33,941 bases of DNA, taken from the NCBI GenBank assembly GCA_019235995.1, contig JAFAJV010000022.1, positions 1 to 33,941 on the forward strand, read 5' to 3'. This DNA is from Vulcanimicrobiota bacterium. Its GTDB lineage: Bacteria; Vulcanimicrobiota; Vulcanimicrobiia; Vulcanimicrobiales; Vulcanimicrobiaceae. Below the pieces are notes generated by a model. It saw only the letters and a program-made list of their open reading frames with translations. It searched no databases and had not been told where the DNA came from. Made by a program: the position numbers and the translations under genes. Positions 1 through 28,799 of this stretch are shown here, piece by piece (positions within the stretch are counted from its first letter, which is position 1; each line of letters begins with the position of its first letter).

Positions 1-1199
1 ACTGTACTCAGATGGTAGCCCTTAGACGAGGGTACGAGGCTGAAGATGGTGCCGCACGTGTACGGCGGACAACCCGGGTTGCCGCCATTCGCCGTCGTCC
101 CGTAAATGACGCCGCCAGGTCCGCTCGCAGGTACGCTGTGCGGGGATTCGGGGCCGCCGTCGCAATCAAAGGCGTGGAGGATTGTCGAAACATAGCGCCC
201 TCGTTGTGGCTTCAATTGAAAAATCGTGCCGCATCCGTGCCGTCCGCCGGCTTGGGTCGTCGCATAAACCGTGCCGTTATTGCCAAGCAAAACTCCGTAA
301 GAAGGAAAGAAGCCCTGGATCTTCTTGCTGAGAAGGCTGATCACGTTAAAGTCGTAGCTCGTGCCGGTCTTTGTCATTTTGAAGATTACGCCACAGCCAT
401 AACCGCCGCACGACTCTCCACCGGAGTTGGTCGTGCCGTAGAGCGAGCCATGCGCATCGATGCTTGGCTGGCTGACGGGTTCCGAGCCATCGTGGCCGTC
501 GAAGCTGTGTAGCAGCGTTTCCACGAATCCGCCCTTGGCGGGCGCCAGCGCAAAGACCGTACCGAAGCCGTATTTTCCGCCGAACCCGGTCGTTCCGTAA
601 AGCGTCCCCGACGAGCTCCGCACCAGGCCGCCATAGGGCGTCACGCCATCGTATGGATAGCCGGGAAACTCGTACAGAATCTTTTCCGCATAGCCGTGTT
701 TGGTCCGTTTCAGTTCGAATACCGTTCCATCGAGTTGCGTCATTTTTCCGCCACTGTACGTAGTGCCGTAAAATTCGCCGTGAGGGCCCGCAATCAAATT
801 GCCGAAAGGCGCGTCGCCGTCGCCATACGACGGTCCCTTAAAGTAATGCAGTACTTCTTCGGTATATCCGCTCCCCTCAGGCGTGAGCTGATATACTACT
901 CCGCAGCCGCCCTGCCCGCACTGCGGTTCGTGAAGGCCGCCGACGTCGGTGGTGCTCACGAGAGTGCCTGCCGGCCCGAAAACGACCTCTTGCGAAGGGG
1001 TCATACCGTCCGGCGAACCCTCAAAACTGTAGAGCACGCGATCACCCTTGTCGAGCCGCGGAGTGGACTCGGCGTAAGGATCACGCGGTGCGAACGATGG
1101 CGCCGAATCGATCCATCGCCCGCAGGCGCCGAGGCCAGCTGCCAGCAGCAATAGAGATAGCGAGCGCAATGCGTGTATGGCAATGCGGTCCATGTGCAT
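1..1199 (-). CDS. GloVer-repeat lipoprotein, 3' end outside the window
   Basis: The frame is open from the left edge to an ATG at 1199 (a second in-frame ATG lies at 1193). It begins MHMDRIAIHALRS, followed by a hydrophobic stretch ending in a lipobox-like AAGLGAC, so it is probably an exported lipoprotein with about 399 residues visible. After the signal come about six repeats of 55-60 residues, each with an LY/LHxF strand, a P-F/Y-G-x-L segment, a FYGTT/LYGTT core followed by GG, and a GTIF/GTVF closing strand. This is the choice-of-anchor 'GloVer' tandem repeat pattern, probably a beta-propeller. A seventh repeat appears to begin at the left edge. The gene is divergent from a second GloVer gene at 1590, and the two share the repeat logic but not close sequence identity. 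Ligand and function are unknown. The family call is firm from the repeat motif; export is inferred. Confidence 0.85.
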   Translation of the reverse strand, partial: MHMDRIAIHALRSLSLLLLAAGLGACGRWIDSAPSFAPRDPYAESTPRLDKGDRVLYSFEGSPDGMTPSQEVVFGPAGTLVSTTDVGGLHEPQCGQGGCGVVYQLTPEGSGYTEEVLHYFKGPSYGDGDAPFGNLIAGPHGEFYGTTYSGGKMTQLDGTVFELKRTKHGYAEKILYEFPGYPYDGVTPYGGLVRSSSGTLYGTTGFGGKYGFGTVFALAPAKGGFVETLLHSFDGHDGSEPVSQPSIDAHGSLYGTTNSGGESCGGYGCGVIFKMTKTGTSYDFNVISLLSKKIQGFFPSYGVLLGNNGTVYATTQAGGRHGCGTIFQLKPQRGRYVSTILHAFDCDGGPESPHSVPASGPGGVIYGTTANGGNPGCPPYTCGTIFSLVPSSKGYHLST

Positions 1200-1589
1200 G
1201 GCCTTCGGCAGCGCGACGTTCACCCCCGTCTAAGAGTTGCTGTCAGGCACCTCGCAAGCTTGCACGGCCGCGCCTCGAAAGTGGATGACAGAGCGCCTTC
1301 ACAGCTGATGGATTACTCAGATTGAATAATTGCGGCAGGAAGGAGATGCGGAGCATGCTAAAGGCGCCAAGCCCAACATCGTTACCGGAGAAATCTGCGC
1401 GGTGTACTAGACGGGACGAGCCGGGACATTTTGCGGGTTCGATTCCCGTTGGCGCTACCAGAAATACACTCGGCGCCGTTAGGAATGTCGCGCCATGCGT
1501 GGCGCGTCGGCTGCTGTACACCAAGCTTGACGCCCCAAATGCGTAGGTGTAGCTTAATCATATTAGCAGCCGTAGAAAAGAGGGCCGCA
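1200..1589. other. Intergenic region between divergent GloVer genes
   Basis: About 390 bp separate the divergent starts at 1199 and 1590. It contains the palindrome GCAAGCTTGC near 1254-1263 and the tRNA-like element described separately. I see no convincing protein-coding frame. Frames that read through the tRNA-like segment give the typical 'VAPTGIEPA' shadow peptide of tRNA 3' ends. Promoters for both genes must lie here, but no clear -35/-10 pair stands out. Confidence 0.5.
1363..1460 (+). other. tRNA-like element or decayed tRNA (acceptor stem plus T arm, no anticodon arm)
   Basis: The 3' end has all the features of a tRNA: a T stem GCGGG (1433-1437), the canonical T loop TTCGATT, CCCGT closing the stem, TGGCGCT as the 3' acceptor strand (1450-1456), discriminator A and CCA (1458-1460). 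A matching 5' acceptor strand GGCGCCA sits at 1363-1369 and pairs over seven positions with one G-U. The 63 bases between contain no 5-bp/7-nt anticodon hairpin at any position and no recognisable D arm, so this is not a normal tRNA. Possible readings are a decayed tRNA, a tRNA-derived attachment-site remnant, or a tRNA-like structured RNA. It lacks the conserved 5' sequence of tmRNA. Confidence 0.45.
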
Positions 1590-2900
1590 ATGTCGCGTTG
1601 GACGTTCGTACTCGTTCTTGTTCTCGTACCTGCCGCTGCCTCAGGCTGCTCCGATGGGAGCGGTTCAGGTGTGACGGCTCCGATCGGCCGAGCGCTCGTC
1701 GGCCGCGGCGCCGCGACGGAGTCGTTTCAAGTCCTGCACTTGTTCGAAAATGGTCGAGACGGCGCCGATCCCGCTGCAGGCCTGCTCCTTGTCGGCGGAA
1801 CCGCCTACGGCACCACATGGAACGGCGGCATCCGTAGGTATGCGGTGTACAACCCTACGGGGACGATCTTTAAAATCGACGCGAGCGGCCACTATTCCGT
1901 GCTGTATCGCTTTTCCGCCCATATGCCGTTCGGTCGACAAGCGAGTCCCGACGGAGGCCTGGTGAACGACCCCGCCGGAAACTTCTACGGCACCACGAGT
2001 CAAGGCGGCCAGAACGAGAAGGGCACCGTCTACAAGCTCAGCGCCCGCGGACGGTTAACGACGCTGTATACGTTCGCGGGCGGCGCCGCCGACGGAGAAT
2101 ACCCTTACGCGACCCTGCTCAGGGACGCACGCGGTAACCTCTACGGAACGACCATTTCCGGCGGCGGTACCGGCTGCGAGGGTGCAGGGTGCGGAACCGT
2201 CTTCGAGATCGATACCTCGAACCACGAGTCCGTGCTGTATCGGTTTGCCGGAGGCACCGACGGATCGCATCCGTATGGCGGCGTCATCCGCGACCGGCAC
2301 GGCAACTTATACGGCACGACGAGCGAAGGCGGTACCTCCTACTGTGTCGGCTCCGGCTGCGGAATCGTCTTCAAGCTCGATCCTCACGGCCACGAAACGA
2401 TCTTGCACCGATTCACCTGTTTCGCAGACGGAGGGTTCCCAATGGACACACCGCTTCAGGGCTCGGACGGCGCCTTATATGCAACGGCCGGCTGCGGCGG
2501 GAAGTTCTACGATGGAATCGTCTTCAAAATCGACATGGGTGGTAACGAAACTGTTCTGTACAATTTCGCGGGCGGTTCCGATGGCGACGCCCCATTCGGC
2601 GGCCTGATTCAAGATGCGGCTGGGAATTTTTACGGAACGACGGAGTTTGGCGGCGGCTACTCGTGCAACGACGGTAACGGTTGCGGTACCATCTTCGAGC
2701 TCGACACCGCAGGCAATGAAACGGTACTATACCCCTTTAAGGGAAAGCGGGACGGCATGGAGCCGGTCACCGGACTCGTCATGGACTTAGCTGGGCATTT
2801 GTACGGCACTACGGAGTACGGCGGTGACCGAGAATGCAACAACGGACTGGGTTGCGGCGTCGTCTTTAAGTTGAAGCAGGCACTACCAAGCGGTCGCTAG
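1590..2900 (+). CDS. GloVer-repeat lipoprotein with seven repeats
   Basis: The chosen ATG at 1590 follows AAAAGAGGG and gives 436 residues. The N-terminus MSRWTFVLVLVLVPAAASGC is a lipoprotein signal with the lipobox cysteine at residue 20. An upstream extension of the frame reads through the tRNA-like element and is not believed. The mature protein is almost entirely seven consecutive repeats of about 55 residues. Each runs from a VLYxF strand through DGxxPxGGL, D-x-x-GNFYGTT and GG to GTIFKID. Repeats 3, 4, 6 and 7 carry paired cysteines in the loop before the last strand (for example CEGAGCG), which may form disulfides. Seven units are consistent with a seven-bladed beta-propeller. Family members are common in soil Acidobacteria and Eremiobacterota and have no assigned biochemical role. 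It is probably a surface or periplasmic-face binding protein. Confidence 0.88.
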   Translation: MSRWTFVLVLVLVPAAASGCSDGSGSGVTAPIGRALVGRGAATESFQVLHLFENGRDGADPAAGLLLVGGTAYGTTWNGGIRRYAVYNPTGTIFKIDASGHYSVLYRFSAHMPFGRQASPDGGLVNDPAGNFYGTTSQGGQNEKGTVYKLSARGRLTTLYTFAGGAADGEYPYATLLRDARGNLYGTTISGGGTGCEGAGCGTVFEIDTSNHESVLYRFAGGTDGSHPYGGVIRDRHGNLYGTTSEGGTSYCVGSGCGIVFKLDPHGHETILHRFTCFADGGFPMDTPLQGSDGALYATAGCGGKFYDGIVFKIDMGGNETVLYNFAGGSDGDAPFGGLIQDAAGNFYGTTEFGGGYSCNDGNGCGTIFELDTAGNETVLYPFKGKRDGMEPVTGLVMDLAGHLYGTTEYGGDRECNNGLGCGVVFKLKQALPSGR

Positions 2901-2979
2901 CTTCGGCGCGGCTTTAGAAGGGTCGGCTCCGCGTTCGTTTTAAAATAGCTGGCAAACGTCTTTTGCACCGAGGGCGATT

Positions 2980-4449
2980 TTGCTACGTTCACTTATCCTT
3001 TGTTTGTGCGCGTCGATCGTGGCATCGCTGGCGCTGCTGAGTTGTCCTCTTGCGGCCGCACTCGCCGACGCTTCTTCCTTAGACTGGGCGCCCTGTCCGC
3101 CGATTAAAGATGCGCAGTGCGCGATGCTGCCTGTCCCGATCGATCCGTCGAAACCGGACGGTGCGACGTTCGACCTTCGTATAGCGCGAATACCGGCAAT
3201 CGGTACGGCACCGAAGCGGGGCATGCTGCTCGTCATTCCCGGCGGACCGGGTGTCGGCATCGAATCGACGGTGGGCGCAGCCGAAAAGCAAGTCACAAAG
3301 TTCCGCACGTACTACGACGTGGTGAGCTTTGACCCGCGTGGGGTCGGCAAGAGCGATCCGATTCGCTGTGAGCCCAACGCCGTACCGAAGCCGCCGCCAC
3401 CGTCTTCTCAGGCTCCGACGCGGGCGCAATTTCAAAACATCGTAGCGACGAACTCTAAGTACTTTACCAGCTGTTTCATGTTGAGCGCGGCGCTCATGCC
3501 ACACCTATCGGCAGTGCAAACCGCCGAAGATATCGAGCGTATTCGGCGCGCCTTGACGCCGAACGACGGCCTTGTCGCGTACGCCGGATCGTACGGAACG
3601 TTGTATGCCGCAATGTATCTAGAACGCTACGGTTCCCGCGTGAAGGCTTTGGTGCTGGACGGTGTCGTGGACCACAGCGTCGATCAGCCGACCGATATCA
3701 CGCGTGCAATTCGCGCACTCAACGAAACCTTTCGGCAGATGTCGGCCTGGTGCGATCGAACGGCTTCGTGCGCGCTCCACGGTAAAAACGTTGGGGCGGC
3801 ATACGATGTCGCTATCGCAAAGGCGCCGATCGTGCGACAGCTCGTCGGGCTCATGCTTGCGGCGGGCCAAGACGCACACGTCGGGTGGCCGGCGATCACG
3901 AAGATGCTCGCGCAGGTCGGCCGCGGCGACATGGCCATGATCGATGCTTTTAAGAAAGCTGCAGCGGAAGCGCGCGGCAACGCATCCCAAGACGCGCAAA
4001 TAACCGCCGGAGAGGGCGGACTTCTTGCCGGTGTCGCCTGCTCTGACTACGGGCCGGTCAACGACTACGACGCGTTCATCAAAGCCGGGCAGACGGCAGT
4101 TCGCGAGGCGCCGCGTTTTGTATGGCGGTATTGGGACTGGACGCCGATCGCGCACATGGGCCCTGGTGCCGCGGACTGCACCGGCTGGCCTCGGCCCGCA
4201 ACGAACGCGCCGCACGTCCTGCGCGTAGGATGGCATCCAAACGTGATGGTTGCCAATCCAACGCGCGATCCATCCACGGCGCTTCCGAATGCACTTGCCG
4301 TGCATCAGCAAATCCCCGGCTCCGTTCTGCTTCTCGCCGACGTTGACGGGCATCAAACTTTGGTTCGATCTCAATGCTCGTTCGACGCAATGATGAAGTT
4401 CTGGAACGATCCAAAGTCGGTGCCGGCCACGATACTCTGTCACCATTAG
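2980..4449 (+). CDS. Secreted S33-family alpha/beta hydrolase (TAP-like)
   Basis: It starts at TTG 2980 after ACCGAGGG and encodes 489 residues with an N-terminal signal peptide (hydrophobic to about residue 28). The oxyanion-loop motif PGGPG is at residues 87-91. The nucleophile elbow reads AGSYG with Ser204, so Ala replaces the usual first Gly. The catalytic acid is probably in TRDPST, and the catalytic His is in DGHQT (His458), as in the TAP-like C-terminal domain. This layout is that of tripeptidyl/proline-aminopeptidase-type hydrolases of the Streptomyces TAP group, which act outside the cytoplasm on peptides or esters. Cysteines around residues 39, 47, 130 and 165 suggest disulfides. 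The next gene starts 10 bp downstream and also encodes an exported serine hydrolase, so the two are probably cotranscribed. Substrate unknown. Confidence 0.85.
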   Translation: MLRSLILCLCASIVASLALLSCPLAAALADASSLDWAPCPPIKDAQCAMLPVPIDPSKPDGATFDLRIARIPAIGTAPKRGMLLVIPGGPGVGIESTVGAAEKQVTKFRTYYDVVSFDPRGVGKSDPIRCEPNAVPKPPPPSSQAPTRAQFQNIVATNSKYFTSCFMLSAALMPHLSAVQTAEDIERIRRALTPNDGLVAYAGSYGTLYAAMYLERYGSRVKALVLDGVVDHSVDQPTDITRAIRALNETFRQMSAWCDRTASCALHGKNVGAAYDVAIAKAPIVRQLVGLMLAAGQDAHVGWPAITKMLAQVGRGDMAMIDAFKKAAAEARGNASQDAQITAGEGGLLAGVACSDYGPVNDYDAFIKAGQTAVREAPRFVWRYWDWTPIAHMGPGAADCTGWPRPATNAPHVLRVGWHPNVMVANPTRDPSTALPNALAVHQQIPGSVLLLADVDGHQTLVRSQCSFDAMMKFWNDPKSVPATILCHH

Positions 4450-4459
4450 GGGCGGGACG

Positions 4460-5923
4460 ATGAAGAGCGCAGCACTCTGCATGATCGTCGCCGTAGTCGG
4501 CCTGCTTGCGGCCATACCCCAGGGCCAAGCGGCGCAAACGACGAGCGGCGTGAGCTCGGCGCAACGGGCCGACATCGACCGCATTGGAGCGAAGTCCGTC
4601 TCGGGGCACTTCGCACCCAGCGTCGTTATCGGCGTGGAGCGCGACGGTAAGAGCGTCTACGTCCACGCCTTCGGCTATCGCACGGTCAATCCTAACGTGT
4701 CGGCGCAATCGTCGACGCCGTATATGATTGGCTCGAATACGAAACAGTTTGCCGCAGCATCGATCCTGCTCTTGCAAGACGAAGGCAAACTGAACGTTAA
4801 CGACCGTCTCTCTAAATACTTTCCTGAGATACCGCACTCAAGCGAAGTAACGCTCCGCGAGCTCCTCACCATGAGCAGCGGCTACGCCGACTACGTCGAG
4901 GCACCGACGTTTCTGCACGCGATGCGCCAACCGGCCTTATCGCCGAAAGCAGCGGTCGATCTCGTGAAGTCGTTACCGCTGGATTTCCCTCCCGGCACAC
5001 GCTGGCAATATAGCAATACGGGCTATATGCTGGCGCAGATGGTGATTGAGAAGGTGAGCGGCATGACGTTTCACGACTTTTTACAGCAGCGTTTCTTCGG
5101 ACCGCTTGGCATGCACGCGACATACCTGCGCCTTTCGAACAATGTCAAGCCGAACGTCGCCGGCGAATACAGCAGCTTCGCGCTCGGGCCATGGGAGCCG
5201 GCGCCATTTTGGGATTACAGCTGGGTCGGCGCGGCGGGCGGATTGGTAAGCAACGTTTCGGATTTGGAGAAGTGGAACGCCGCGCTGGACGGCGGCAAGA
5301 TTCTTTCGCCGCAATCGCAAGCCGAAATGTTCGCGCCGGGACCGGCCGCGTCGAGTCCCGGTGGCGAGGGCTACGGCATGGGGATCCGGGCCGGCAAAAT
5401 GCCGAACGGCCATCGTTTTATCTGGCACGGCGGAAATGCGGCGGGATCGGCGACTCAAAATGCACGTTTCCCCGACGACCATCTCGCGATCATCGTTTTC
5501 TCGAATGCACCATACTATAGCTACAACACGGCGGTACGTGCGATTTATAAAGTGCTGGTCCCTGAGTCCACTGCTAGCGCGTCAGCGGCCGCGGCGCCCC
5601 CACCATCGCCTCCACAAGGGGATCGTCAGCGGATACGAGCGGCGATCGCGTGGCTTAACGACGCAATCGCGGGAAAACCGAATACGACGAACGTCACCAG
5701 GGAGATGCGCACGGTGCTCACTTTGAACCACTTGGCGGCTCTACGAGCGCTGTCGAAATATGGTCCACGCACATACGCGCTCGAAAGCATCGATCGCCGC
5801 AAGCCCACGACGACCTACGTCTTTACGGTAAAAGCGCGAAAAAAGACGATGATGTACGTCTACAAATGGGACGACAATGGAAAGCTCGCAGACGTCCTCG
5901 TGCTTCCTGACATGACTTTTTAG
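4460..5923 (+). CDS. Exported serine hydrolase, beta-lactamase class C fold
   Basis: This is a 487-residue protein with a signal peptide ending near GQA-AQ (about residue 24). The class C/AmpH motifs are in order: SNTK (Ser92 and Lys95), YSN at 184-186, and HGG at 323-325 in place of the KTG box. The HGG form is usual in esterase/DD-peptidase-like members rather than true beta-lactamases. Helix and loop signatures such as LRELLTMSSGYADY also fit the family. A C-terminal extension of about 110 residues follows an Ala/Pro-rich linker (about 370-385) and may be a small beta domain. The ATG lies 10 bp after the preceding hydrolase with GGGGCGGGACG upstream. The likely role is peptide or ester hydrolysis in the periplasm. 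It is paralogous to the gene at 7698. Confidence 0.86.
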   Translation: MKSAALCMIVAVVGLLAAIPQGQAAQTTSGVSSAQRADIDRIGAKSVSGHFAPSVVIGVERDGKSVYVHAFGYRTVNPNVSAQSSTPYMIGSNTKQFAAASILLLQDEGKLNVNDRLSKYFPEIPHSSEVTLRELLTMSSGYADYVEAPTFLHAMRQPALSPKAAVDLVKSLPLDFPPGTRWQYSNTGYMLAQMVIEKVSGMTFHDFLQQRFFGPLGMHATYLRLSNNVKPNVAGEYSSFALGPWEPAPFWDYSWVGAAGGLVSNVSDLEKWNAALDGGKILSPQSQAEMFAPGPAASSPGGEGYGMGIRAGKMPNGHRFIWHGGNAAGSATQNARFPDDHLAIIVFSNAPYYSYNTAVRAIYKVLVPESTASASAAAAPPPSPPQGDRQRIRAAIAWLNDAIAGKPNTTNVTREMRTVLTLNHLAALRALSKYGPRTYALESIDRRKPTTTYVFTVKARKKTMMYVYKWDDNGKLADVLVLPDMTF

Positions 5924-5978
5924 GCGTCTAGACAGCCTCTCGCGTGGCCCGCCCTGATTAGGTCGGTCCTTTGCGCCG

Positions 5979-26264: not shown

Positions 26265-28799
26265 GTGAGTTTGACGTTCGCCTTCACCGATATCGAGGGC
26301 AGCACAACACGATGGGAGCGTGACCGCGTTGCGATGCAGGACGCCGTGCGCCGCCACGACGCGATCGTGCGCGAGGCCATCACCGAGCACGGCGGCGAAG
26401 TCTTCAAGACGATCGGCGACGCATTCTGCAGCACCTTCGAACGCCCCGAGGCGGCCGTCGCGGCGATGCTCGCGGCGCAGCGCACGCTAAACGCCGAGGA
26501 CTTCTCGACCGTCGACGGCTTGCGAGTGCGCACCGCGATCCACAGCGGTGTCGCCGACGCACGGGAAGGCGACTACTTCGGTCCGGCGGTCAACAAGGTT
26601 GCGCGGCTGCTCGCGATCGGCCACGGCGGTCAGATTCTGCTCACGGCCGAGACGGCCGCCCTCGTCGATGGCGCTCTGCCGAAAGGTGCGTCGCTGCGCG
26701 AGCTGGGCGCCTATCATCTCAAAGACTTCAGCGAGCCGCAACGCGTGCATCAGCTGATGGCGGCGGAACTCCCGTCGGAATTCCCGCCCCTGCGGTCGCT
26801 CGGGACGCTGCCCAGCGATCTTTCGCTCGTCGACGCCGCGGAGTTTTACGCGGTGCCCAGCTTCAGCGGGCGCGACGGCGAGCTCGATGCGGTACACGCG
26901 GCGCTGAAGGACGACGGCGCGGTCGCGCTGGTGCATGGGCTCGGCGGGGTCGGCAAATCGTCCCTTGCTCGCGAGTACGGATGGCGCAACCGCGACGCGT
27001 ATTCCGTCGTGTGGTGGCTGAACGCCGAGACCGAAGCCGGCATCATCGACGGCTTGGTGCGCTTGGGCACGATGTTCGCGCAGGGACTCGACCAGCTGGC
27101 GGATCGGCGCGTCGCGGCGCAGCGCGTCATCAATTCGGTGCTGGGCGGCTTCGACAAGCCGGTCCTCCTTGTCTTCGATAATCTCGAAGACGAGGGTCTG
27201 CTTCGGACCTGGCTGCCGCGCACCGGAGCTCGCGCCGTCGTCACGTCGCGCGACGCCGCGTTGAGCGCCGCCGCCGATACGGTTCCGGTGCAGGTCTGGC
27301 CGCTCGATGTCTCCGTTGCGTACCTGCGCGACTCGAGCGGGCGCTCCGACCTGAGCGAAGACGATGCACGCGACATCGCCCAAGTCCTCGGAACCCTTCC
27401 GCTGGCGCTGGCGCATGCCGCCGCCGCGCTGCGCGGCATGCGGATGATCGGCCCTCGGGGCTACTTGGCGCGCATCAACGAGCATCTCAAGAATGCTCCA
27501 CGCGGCGCGAACTACCCGCGCTCCGTCTTCGCGACGTTCAGCGAATCGATCGCGCAGGCCGAGCAGCAAGCTCCCGGCGCGGCGGCGGTGCTCTGTTTCG
27601 CGGCCTGCTTTGCGCCCGATGCCATCCCCGAAGAGCTGTTCCATCAGGGGGGCGATCCCTGTCCGGAACGTCTCGAGCCGATAGTTCCCGGCGGTGATGC
27701 AATCGATTTACGCTCGGCGCTCAGCGACGACTTCCGGTTGGACCACGCGCTCGCCGCGCTCGATCGCCTCGGCCTGCTGCCCTTTGTTGCGAGCTCGCGG
27801 ACCTTCGGGATGCACCGGCTCGTCCAGATCGCGGCACGCGATCTTCTGCGGAACGATGCCGCGTGGTCCGAATTTGCGGTGGCCGCCGCCCTCGCGGTGT
27901 TTCCGCGCGCGGAGTTCGAAACGTGGCCGCAGTGCGAGAGGATACTTGCGCACGCCCGCGCGGCGTTAGACGCCTTGCCAGACGGCGCCCAACGATTAAC
28001 GGCGGCCGACCTGTCACGGCGCTGCGCCATCTACCTGTGGGCGCGCGGCGAATACGACGCGGCCGAAGAGTTCTGTGCGCGCGCGCTGGAGATCCTCGAA
28101 AGCGCACACGGGCCGAATCACCCCCACGTCGCGCGAGCACTCAACAACCTCGGCGTGCTCTACATGGAGCTGGGGCGACATCCGGAAGCCGAGCCGCTCC
28201 TCGCGCGCGCGCTGGCGATGCGCGAGGCCGACCTCGGCCCCGACCATCCCAGCGTCGCGCTGAACCTGTACAACCTCGGACTCGTGTGCATGGAACTGGC
28301 TCGACCTGCCGAGGCGGAGTCGTTTCACACGCGTGCGTTGAGGATTCGCGAGAAGGCATTCGAGCCGGATAGTCCCGAGCTTCTGCAGAGCTTGGTCGGT
28401 CTCGGCGTGCTCTACCGAACCGAAGGACGCTACGCCGACGCCGAGTCGCTTCTCACCCGCGTGCTCGCGGCCCGTGAGGCGGCGCTCGGGGCTGATCATC
28501 CCGACGTAGCCATGAGCCTCATGTTCGTCGCGGAGGTTTGTGCCGACTCGGGACGCGGCACCGAGGCCGAGCGGTTATACCTTCGCGCGTTGGCAGTTTG
28601 GGAGAAGGCGCTCGGCCCCGATCATCCCGACGTCGCGGAGGGGCTCAAGGGGCTCGCGCGTGTGTATCGCGATGACGGCGATTTTGCCAGATCGGAGGCG
28701 CTGCTTCATCGAGCGCTGACGATTCGTGAGAAGACCCTCGGCCCGCATCACCCGCTGACGAAGGCCACGCGCGAGGCGCTGGGCGCGGTCGCCTCCTGA
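26265..28799 (+). CDS. Adenylyl cyclase / NB-ARC NTPase / TPR signalling protein
   Basis: This is an 844-residue multidomain regulator from GTG 26265. Residues 1-165 form a class III nucleotidyl cyclase domain. Metal-binding Asp9 (FTDIEGST) and Asp52 (KTIGDAF), substrate Lys48, Asp103 in DYFGPAVN, and transition-state residues Asn110 and Arg114 (NKVAR) are all present, so it looks catalytically complete and should make cAMP. Residues about 195-480 are a STAND/NB-ARC ATPase with Walker A HGLGGVGKSS (Lys231) and Walker B LLVFDN (301-306), then a winged-helix-like part. Residues about 590-840 hold five or six kinesin-light-chain-type TPRs of 42 residues (ALxxREKxLGPDHPDVA). It is cytoplasmic. 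Such proteins sense a ligand through the repeats and signal through the cyclase. The effector is not in the window. Confidence 0.9.
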   Translation: MSLTFAFTDIEGSTTRWERDRVAMQDAVRRHDAIVREAITEHGGEVFKTIGDAFCSTFERPEAAVAAMLAAQRTLNAEDFSTVDGLRVRTAIHSGVADAREGDYFGPAVNKVARLLAIGHGGQILLTAETAALVDGALPKGASLRELGAYHLKDFSEPQRVHQLMAAELPSEFPPLRSLGTLPSDLSLVDAAEFYAVPSFSGRDGELDAVHAALKDDGAVALVHGLGGVGKSSLAREYGWRNRDAYSVVWWLNAETEAGIIDGLVRLGTMFAQGLDQLADRRVAAQRVINSVLGGFDKPVLLVFDNLEDEGLLRTWLPRTGARAVVTSRDAALSAAADTVPVQVWPLDVSVAYLRDSSGRSDLSEDDARDIAQVLGTLPLALAHAAAALRGMRMIGPRGYLARINEHLKNAPRGANYPRSVFATFSESIAQAEQQAPGAAAVLCFAACFAPDAIPEELFHQGGDPCPERLEPIVPGGDAIDLRSALSDDFRLDHALAALDRLGLLPFVASSRTFGMHRLVQIAARDLLRNDAAWSEFAVAAALAVFPRAEFETWPQCERILAHARAALDALPDGAQRLTAADLSRRCAIYLWARGEYDAAEEFCARALEILESAHGPNHPHVARALNNLGVLYMELGRHPEAEPLLARALAMREADLGPDHPSVALNLYNLGLVCMELARPAEAESFHTRALRIREKAFEPDSPELLQSLVGLGVLYRTEGRYADAESLLTRVLAAREAALGADHPDVAMSLMFVAEVCADSGRGTEAERLYLRALAVWEKALGPDHPDVAEGLKGLARVYRDDGDFARSEALLHRALTIREKTLGPHHPLTKATREALGAVAS

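Follow-up and report, generated by a model that had tools for sequence, protein, structure and literature searches.

A displaced tRNA-Glu end, very probably the attachment-site scar of a mobile element, in a genome placed by genus with Candidatus Eremiobacterota

Which kind of sequence carries a perfect T arm, an acceptor strand and a terminal CCA between two protein-coding genes, if no cloverleaf can be drawn around it? This question is raised by a locus in a stretch of 33,941 nucleotides, called the window in the following, which represents the entire contig C127 of genome G000 (154 contigs, 2.61 Mb). From the letters alone, the locus had been described as a tRNA-like element whose T arm and 3' acceptor strand form a minihelix with a heptamer further upstream; a decayed tRNA or the attachment-site scar of a lost element was regarded as most likely, a tRNA-mimic RNA as the more exciting possibility. 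The comparisons reported here indicate that the feature is very probably an attR-type scar, i.e. a displaced tRNA-Glu end with a truncated arm, which was left by a mobile element targeting tRNA-Glu.

The tRNA end in the window and its surroundings

The central part of the feature, window positions 1435-1460 on the forward strand (GGGTTCGATTCCCGTTGGCGCTACCA), consists of a perfect T arm, the 3' acceptor strand, the discriminator A and CCA, as had been noticed before. It is identical in 26/26 positions to the 3' end of a predicted tRNA-Glu(TTC) gene on a different contig of the same genome (G000:C1:6712-6786), hence the search for an intact tRNA with this end, which the sequence-only reading had proposed, was successful. 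The reversed control pattern gave 0 matches in the G000 genome, and the identity over 26 nt is far beyond chance. We regard these 26 nt as the displaced 3' end of tRNA-Glu(TTC) and as the putative core of an attachment site. Three further copies of the tRNA end that do not belong to a tRNA gene exist in G000, at C1:9309, C2:6229 (reverse strand) and C2:641 (reverse strand). The copy at C2:6229 also has the stretch before the core in common with the window, with 89% identity over 1404-1464 including the core (G000:C2:6225-6287). This match extends to the end of the tetramer GAAA that follows the CCA (1461-1464, forward strand) and recurs in relatives after several tRNA-Glu genes and scars. The positions 1404-1434 (forward strand) are interpreted as a remnant of the distal arm of the element, from which the outer inverted-repeat half is missing. 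In G000 the tRNA-Glu gene and the window scar are situated on separate contigs; a scar downstream of tRNA-Glu in the same orientation and on a single contig was observed in G000 (the C1 copy), G010, G013 and G022.

The scar is located between two divergent GloVer-type genes, as stated in the earlier reading. The left one (3-1223, reverse strand) is an ORF that runs off the contig and shows 34% identity to a GloVer gene at G000:C1:7999-9075; the right one (about 1590-2900, forward strand) is an ORF with a TIGR03803 repeat match at 1941-2084. Such repeats are abundant, with at least 102 to at least 150 TIGR03803 matches at E <= 1e-5 per genome in all six genomes scanned. Therefore, the proximity of the scar to GloVer genes says little, and the assumption that these genes represent a specific cargo was rejected. 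Further to the right, Pfam assigns an alpha/beta-hydrolase and a beta-lactamase-family gene (2980-4449 and 4460-5923, within 2892-5951, forward strand). This segment is 79% identical over 3,070 bp to an inverted counterpart at G013:C7:1626602-1629657, which lies inside a tRNA-Glu island between scars at 1626009 and 1649667. That the right flank of the window represents the native flank of tRNA-Glu received no support: the FA desaturase has relatives with 83-90% identity on G006:C21 and G011:C24, and the G013 relative of the Cu_amine_oxidN1-domain protein is found at C7:141 kb, far from tRNA-Glu at 1,618 kb.

Two observations on the reading frames of the contig may be added. ORFs that run antisense through the tRNA end encode the peptide APTGIEP or similar, in the window (1243-1524, reverse strand) as well as at G000:C1:9165-9413 (reverse strand) and G000:C2:1-732 (forward strand); antisense frames across tRNA ends probably give rise to spurious gene calls at scars of this kind. 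Moreover, a single ORF of 844 aa at 26265-28799 (forward strand) fuses an adenylate/guanylate cyclase domain, an AAA/NB-ARC domain and many TPR repeats.

Arms, integrases and islands at tRNA-Glu in related genomes

Matches to the tRNA-end pattern were found in 24 of 41 genomes (G000 and 40 relatives), with up to 13 matches per genome. In relatives of the same genus the same 3' end is repeated many times, often in tandem, and it follows shared sequences that we call arms. In the stretches examined, 70 distinct sites could be defined (at most four mismatches over 23 nt), of which 16 were called as tRNA and 54 were not; the latter include a tRNA truncated at a contig end and a site preceded by N. 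In many of the remaining sites the core immediately follows a common arm, and the same tRNA core is joined by several arm types. In one arm type the core begins with GCTTTCGATTCCC and the match to the tRNA starts only from the T loop onward, which would fit a crossover in the T loop. Exact matches to arm plus core in named genomes were obtained in eight stretches, all of them from Candidatus Eremiobacterota. The same exact pattern had 0 matches in viral_contigs, and a viral origin was rejected on this pattern. Some copies lie apart from tRNA-Glu or have no recognised arm (G013:C1:190689, C1:291556 and C7:782626). A palindrome-like repeat, GTCATCCTGAGCTTGTCGAAGGA and variants of it, is present directly before the core at G000:C2:641-699 (reverse strand), G003:C19:4044, G014:C56:10153, G016:C1:4506 and G016:C93:43257; a repeat of this type also occurs near a broken core in G010.

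The arms behave as would be expected of element ends. For 17 of 45 scars with enough flanking sequence, the arm repeats in inverted form what follows a tRNA-Glu gene that bears an integrase (scores of 28 to 41, cut-off 28); in 600 non-overlapping pairs of control windows the score averaged 13.8, with the 99% point at 22 and no pair above 26. In the window, the core is preceded by an element end sequence that is common to the C2 and G010 copies, namely the inner arm. The arm of the window and that of the C2 copy (60 nt before the core) align with a score of 37, compared to 19 for the best non-overlapping among 400 control 60-mers, and positions 1404-1427 are 96% identical over 24 nt to G010:C1:1748476-1748499. 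The best inverted partner of the window arm has a score of only 22, corresponding to the missing outer half, and the full 40-nt arm has an edit distance of 15 to the type-A consensus, which is no closer than the best controls (minimum 14). The link of the window to the arm family rests on the inner arm and the two nearer copies.

Tyrosine integrases were found at a fixed place relative to the cores. Ten genomes gave 88 PF00589 matches and 56 core matches. Of the former, 13 follow a core at a distance of 125-216 bp downstream, invariably on the opposite strand, and the 3 kb upstream of these cores are free of PF00589; one additional match is situated 1,326 bp downstream of a core on the same strand. 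Five of the 13 adjoin tRNA-Glu itself and eight adjoin scars. With an HMM built from nine seed integrases and frames read from stop to stop, an integrase frame ends within about 110 bp of the core, or overlaps it from the far side, at seven of the 16 tRNA sites. Integrase sublocation is reportedly a subject that was treated by Williams in 2002. The window contig has a single attachment site, with no second site and no PF00589 match, and the three PF00589 matches of G000 are on C72, C25 and C153; the suggested search for integrase genes near the feature was hence negative. Since there is no integrase in a bounded interval, the window feature is filed as a scar and not as an element. In the stretches examined, PF00589 was likewise absent from 14 of 16 segments between neighbouring sites on the same strand, including two segments of G000.

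An element with both ends was found in G010:C1, where a tRNA-Glu gene with integrase at 1644992 and a scar at 1743598 are each other's best partner in the pairing of arms (score 36). The paired ends bound 98,606 bp. A Pfam run on 19 of its 51 ORFs of 200 aa or more revealed the tyrosine integrase, TrbI, TrbL/VirB6, VirB4, a VirD4-type coupling protein and a MobA/VirD2-like relaxase. Two more weak integrase matches inside the element suggest that it may be composite. Further in, a lantibiotic dehydratase and an ABC transporter are encoded. The DNA that starts approximately 6.2 kb past the scar at 1743598 has a counterpart of 92% identity in G002:C58, which extends over 1,627 bp from position 366 and begins about 230 bp after an intact tRNA-Glu. 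As the flank of G010 follows directly after tRNA-Glu in G002, G002 looks like the empty site and G010 like the filled one. The interval between the first scar of G010 and this flank also holds a scar at 1746539 and, near 1748500, an arm whose core is broken. Arrays exist as well: G016:C134 contains four tRNA-Glu ends on the same strand in 36 kb, with AbiEii/AbiEi toxin-antitoxin, a ResIII helicase, a TOTE-type primase-helicase and an HTH-AAA-TPR protein between them. Between the two scars of G000:C2, positions 1010-3166 encode an AAA_15-type ATPase with weak likeness to AriA and OLD-family defence proteins.

Readings as RNA, decayed gene or mobile repeat

ARAGORN predicted 0 tRNAs in the window, and Rfam, whose models were among the checks proposed earlier, gave no family at gathering score; a lax scan of 1200-1620 produced only two sub-threshold matches (E 0.4 and 0.76). 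A tRNA, tmRNA or other known RNA was rejected accordingly. No cloverleaf or homologous 5' half exists, because the sequence 5' of the T arm is unlike tRNA-Glu and shows no trace of a D arm or an anticodon arm. The minihelix was based on the heptamer GGCGCCA at 1363-1369 (forward strand), which is indeed present 81 nt before TGGCGCT (1450-1456) and was assumed to be the 5' acceptor strand. However, the homology of the window with other copies begins at 1404, so that the heptamer is outside the conserved segment. With wobble allowed, 769 of 2605 sampled 80-mers of the window contain a 7-bp partner for TGGCGCT, and the exact heptamer occurs in 48 of these 2605, which corresponds to a coincidence of roughly 2% per 80-mer. 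Among 50 copies not called as tRNA (window included), a wobble-allowed partner was found in nine, at or below chance level, and one of the nine (G020:C34) is a true tRNA gene cut by the contig end. The heptamer is therefore judged coincidental, and the minihelix did not withstand the comparison. We also rejected a self-contained hairpin around each scar: pairing of inverted arms within scars had a mean of 13.67 compared to 13.3 between scars (permutation p 0.16), hence no local stem is conserved, and the arms look like the two ends of an element.

These results bear directly on the explanations that compete with a scar. It is extremely improbable that the T arm and acceptor strand pair with 1363-1369 in a tRNA-mimic or tRNA-like regulatory RNA that would be processed at the CCA. 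Such a pairing can be drawn and the copies recur in the genus, but the position of the 5' partner outside the conserved segment, the frequency of chance partners, the lack of an Rfam match at gathering score and the absent preference for pairing within a scar all argue against it, and the mimic found no positive support. A tRNA-Glu gene that decayed in place, with its 5' half drifted or deleted, is also very unlikely. The perfect 3' end and the heptamer, which equals the first seven bases of tRNA-Glu, would speak for such a pseudogene; nevertheless, the D and anticodon arms have left no trace, neither ARAGORN nor Rfam recognises a tRNA, the sequence before the core is related to the arms of other scars, and a perfect 3' end with a missing 5' part is what displacement predicts. 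Of the two origins that the sequence-only reading had offered jointly, the attachment-site scar is thus strongly supported, whereas the decayed tRNA is abandoned: no likeness to tRNA-Glu exists 5' of the T arm, where the 31 nt before the core represent an element arm. A different idea is that arm and tRNA end form a short mobile repeat of about 100 bp, which spreads by itself like a MITE or a SINE. In favour of it, two type-A copies of arm plus core in G013, at C1:190689 (reverse strand) and 291556 (forward strand), lie about 100 kb apart in opposite orientation on a contig without PF00589 match, and most segments between same-strand sites (the 14 of 16 mentioned above) are free of PF00589 as well. 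We consider it highly improbable all the same, given that the integrase next to 13 of 56 cores always has the same place and orientation, and given the arrays and the apparently empty site; moreover, the arms pair with the tRNA-side end and not with their own downstream side, as the ends of a long element should, and missing integrases are explicable by decay, rearrangement or mobilisation in trans.

Origin of the scar and its meaning for the phylum

The attachment-site scar is strongly supported because an intact tRNA with the same end, the genus-wide combination of arm and tRNA fragment, integrases at a fixed place, an element with two ends and an apparently empty site come together. A mobile element with a tRNA-Glu-specific tyrosine integrase would insert at the T loop or 3' end of tRNA-Glu(TTC). 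The attP copy of the element would restore the tRNA gene, and the old 3' end with T arm, acceptor strand and CCA would come to lie at the distal border of the insert. What survives in the window would be this displaced end and the inner half of the distal arm; the outer half is lost, and the contig has no integrase. We infer that the window copy has the same history as the elements of the relatives. Either it would still share an island with tRNA-Glu, interrupted only by contig gaps, or the two would have become separated at a later time; apart from serving as a possible attachment site, it would have no function today. In the simplest reading, C127 begins within, or once belonged to, a tRNA-Glu island and the scar is the old attR. 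Decay and rearrangement may explain the copies that do not fit and the segments without integrase, and a more active array is possible as well. In such a scheme the tRNA-Glu ends of the genus would form a gene-capture array, in which integrase-less segments of about 1 to 24 kb, each closed by arm and tRNA 3' end, are inserted and removed in trans by integrases of resident conjugative elements, and the scar in the window would be one of the sites at which segments can land repeatedly. This array would be somewhat integron-like, with the tRNA end as cassette site; we regard it as rather unlikely.

Displaced tRNA 3' ends are already known. Islander makes use of the fact that integrating islands displace tRNA 3' ends, and it lists 3760 islands that carry a 3' tDNA fragment (T-stem-region class: 1836) as well as four arrays of three or more (PMC4383910). 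The sites described here resemble those cases because a 3' fragment of the tRNA marks the far end of the island, the tRNA gene is restored, the crossover falls in the T-stem region and a tyrosine integrase is found next to the tRNA in relatives. In contrast to Islander cases, contig ends separate the fragment in the window from its tRNA, and no integrase is found nearby. Furthermore, rows of three or more sites exist in several relatives, compared to only four cases in Islander, where each member is also required to have an integrase of its own. Tandem accretion of ICEs and IMEs together with integrase-less CIMEs has also been described (PMC5704250); there, att-bounded segments without integrase stand beside integrase-bearing ones at the same tRNA, as in the relatives. 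However, the window has one site and not a bounded segment, and mobilisation in trans is putative here. The G010 element with its integrase, TrbI, TrbL, VirB4, VirD4-type protein and relaxase resembles ICEs with VirB/Trb-type transfer genes in tRNA genes, whereas those transfer families are absent from the 20 window ORFs scanned; that the lost element of the window was itself conjugative is a guess. Judged by their titles, the reports found on ICEs or genomic islands in Eremiobacterota contain none on such sites and one mining resistome study.

Hence, the window feature adds an instance of an ordinary kind of scar and is not a new tRNA-like molecule; what looked like an odd tRNA-like element can be put down to a mobile element that left its footprint. 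Traces of this type help to locate gene transfer where genomes are available from metagenomes only, and they can mislead tRNA finders and gene finders. For the uncultured Candidatus Eremiobacterota, an integration hotspot at tRNA-Glu(TTC) is indicated: one relative has a two-ended element of 98.6 kb with conjugation genes, and another has arrays with toxin-antitoxin, restriction-helicase and TOTE-type genes. Within this phylum, a tRNA-Glu hotspot with such long arrays is of mild interest.
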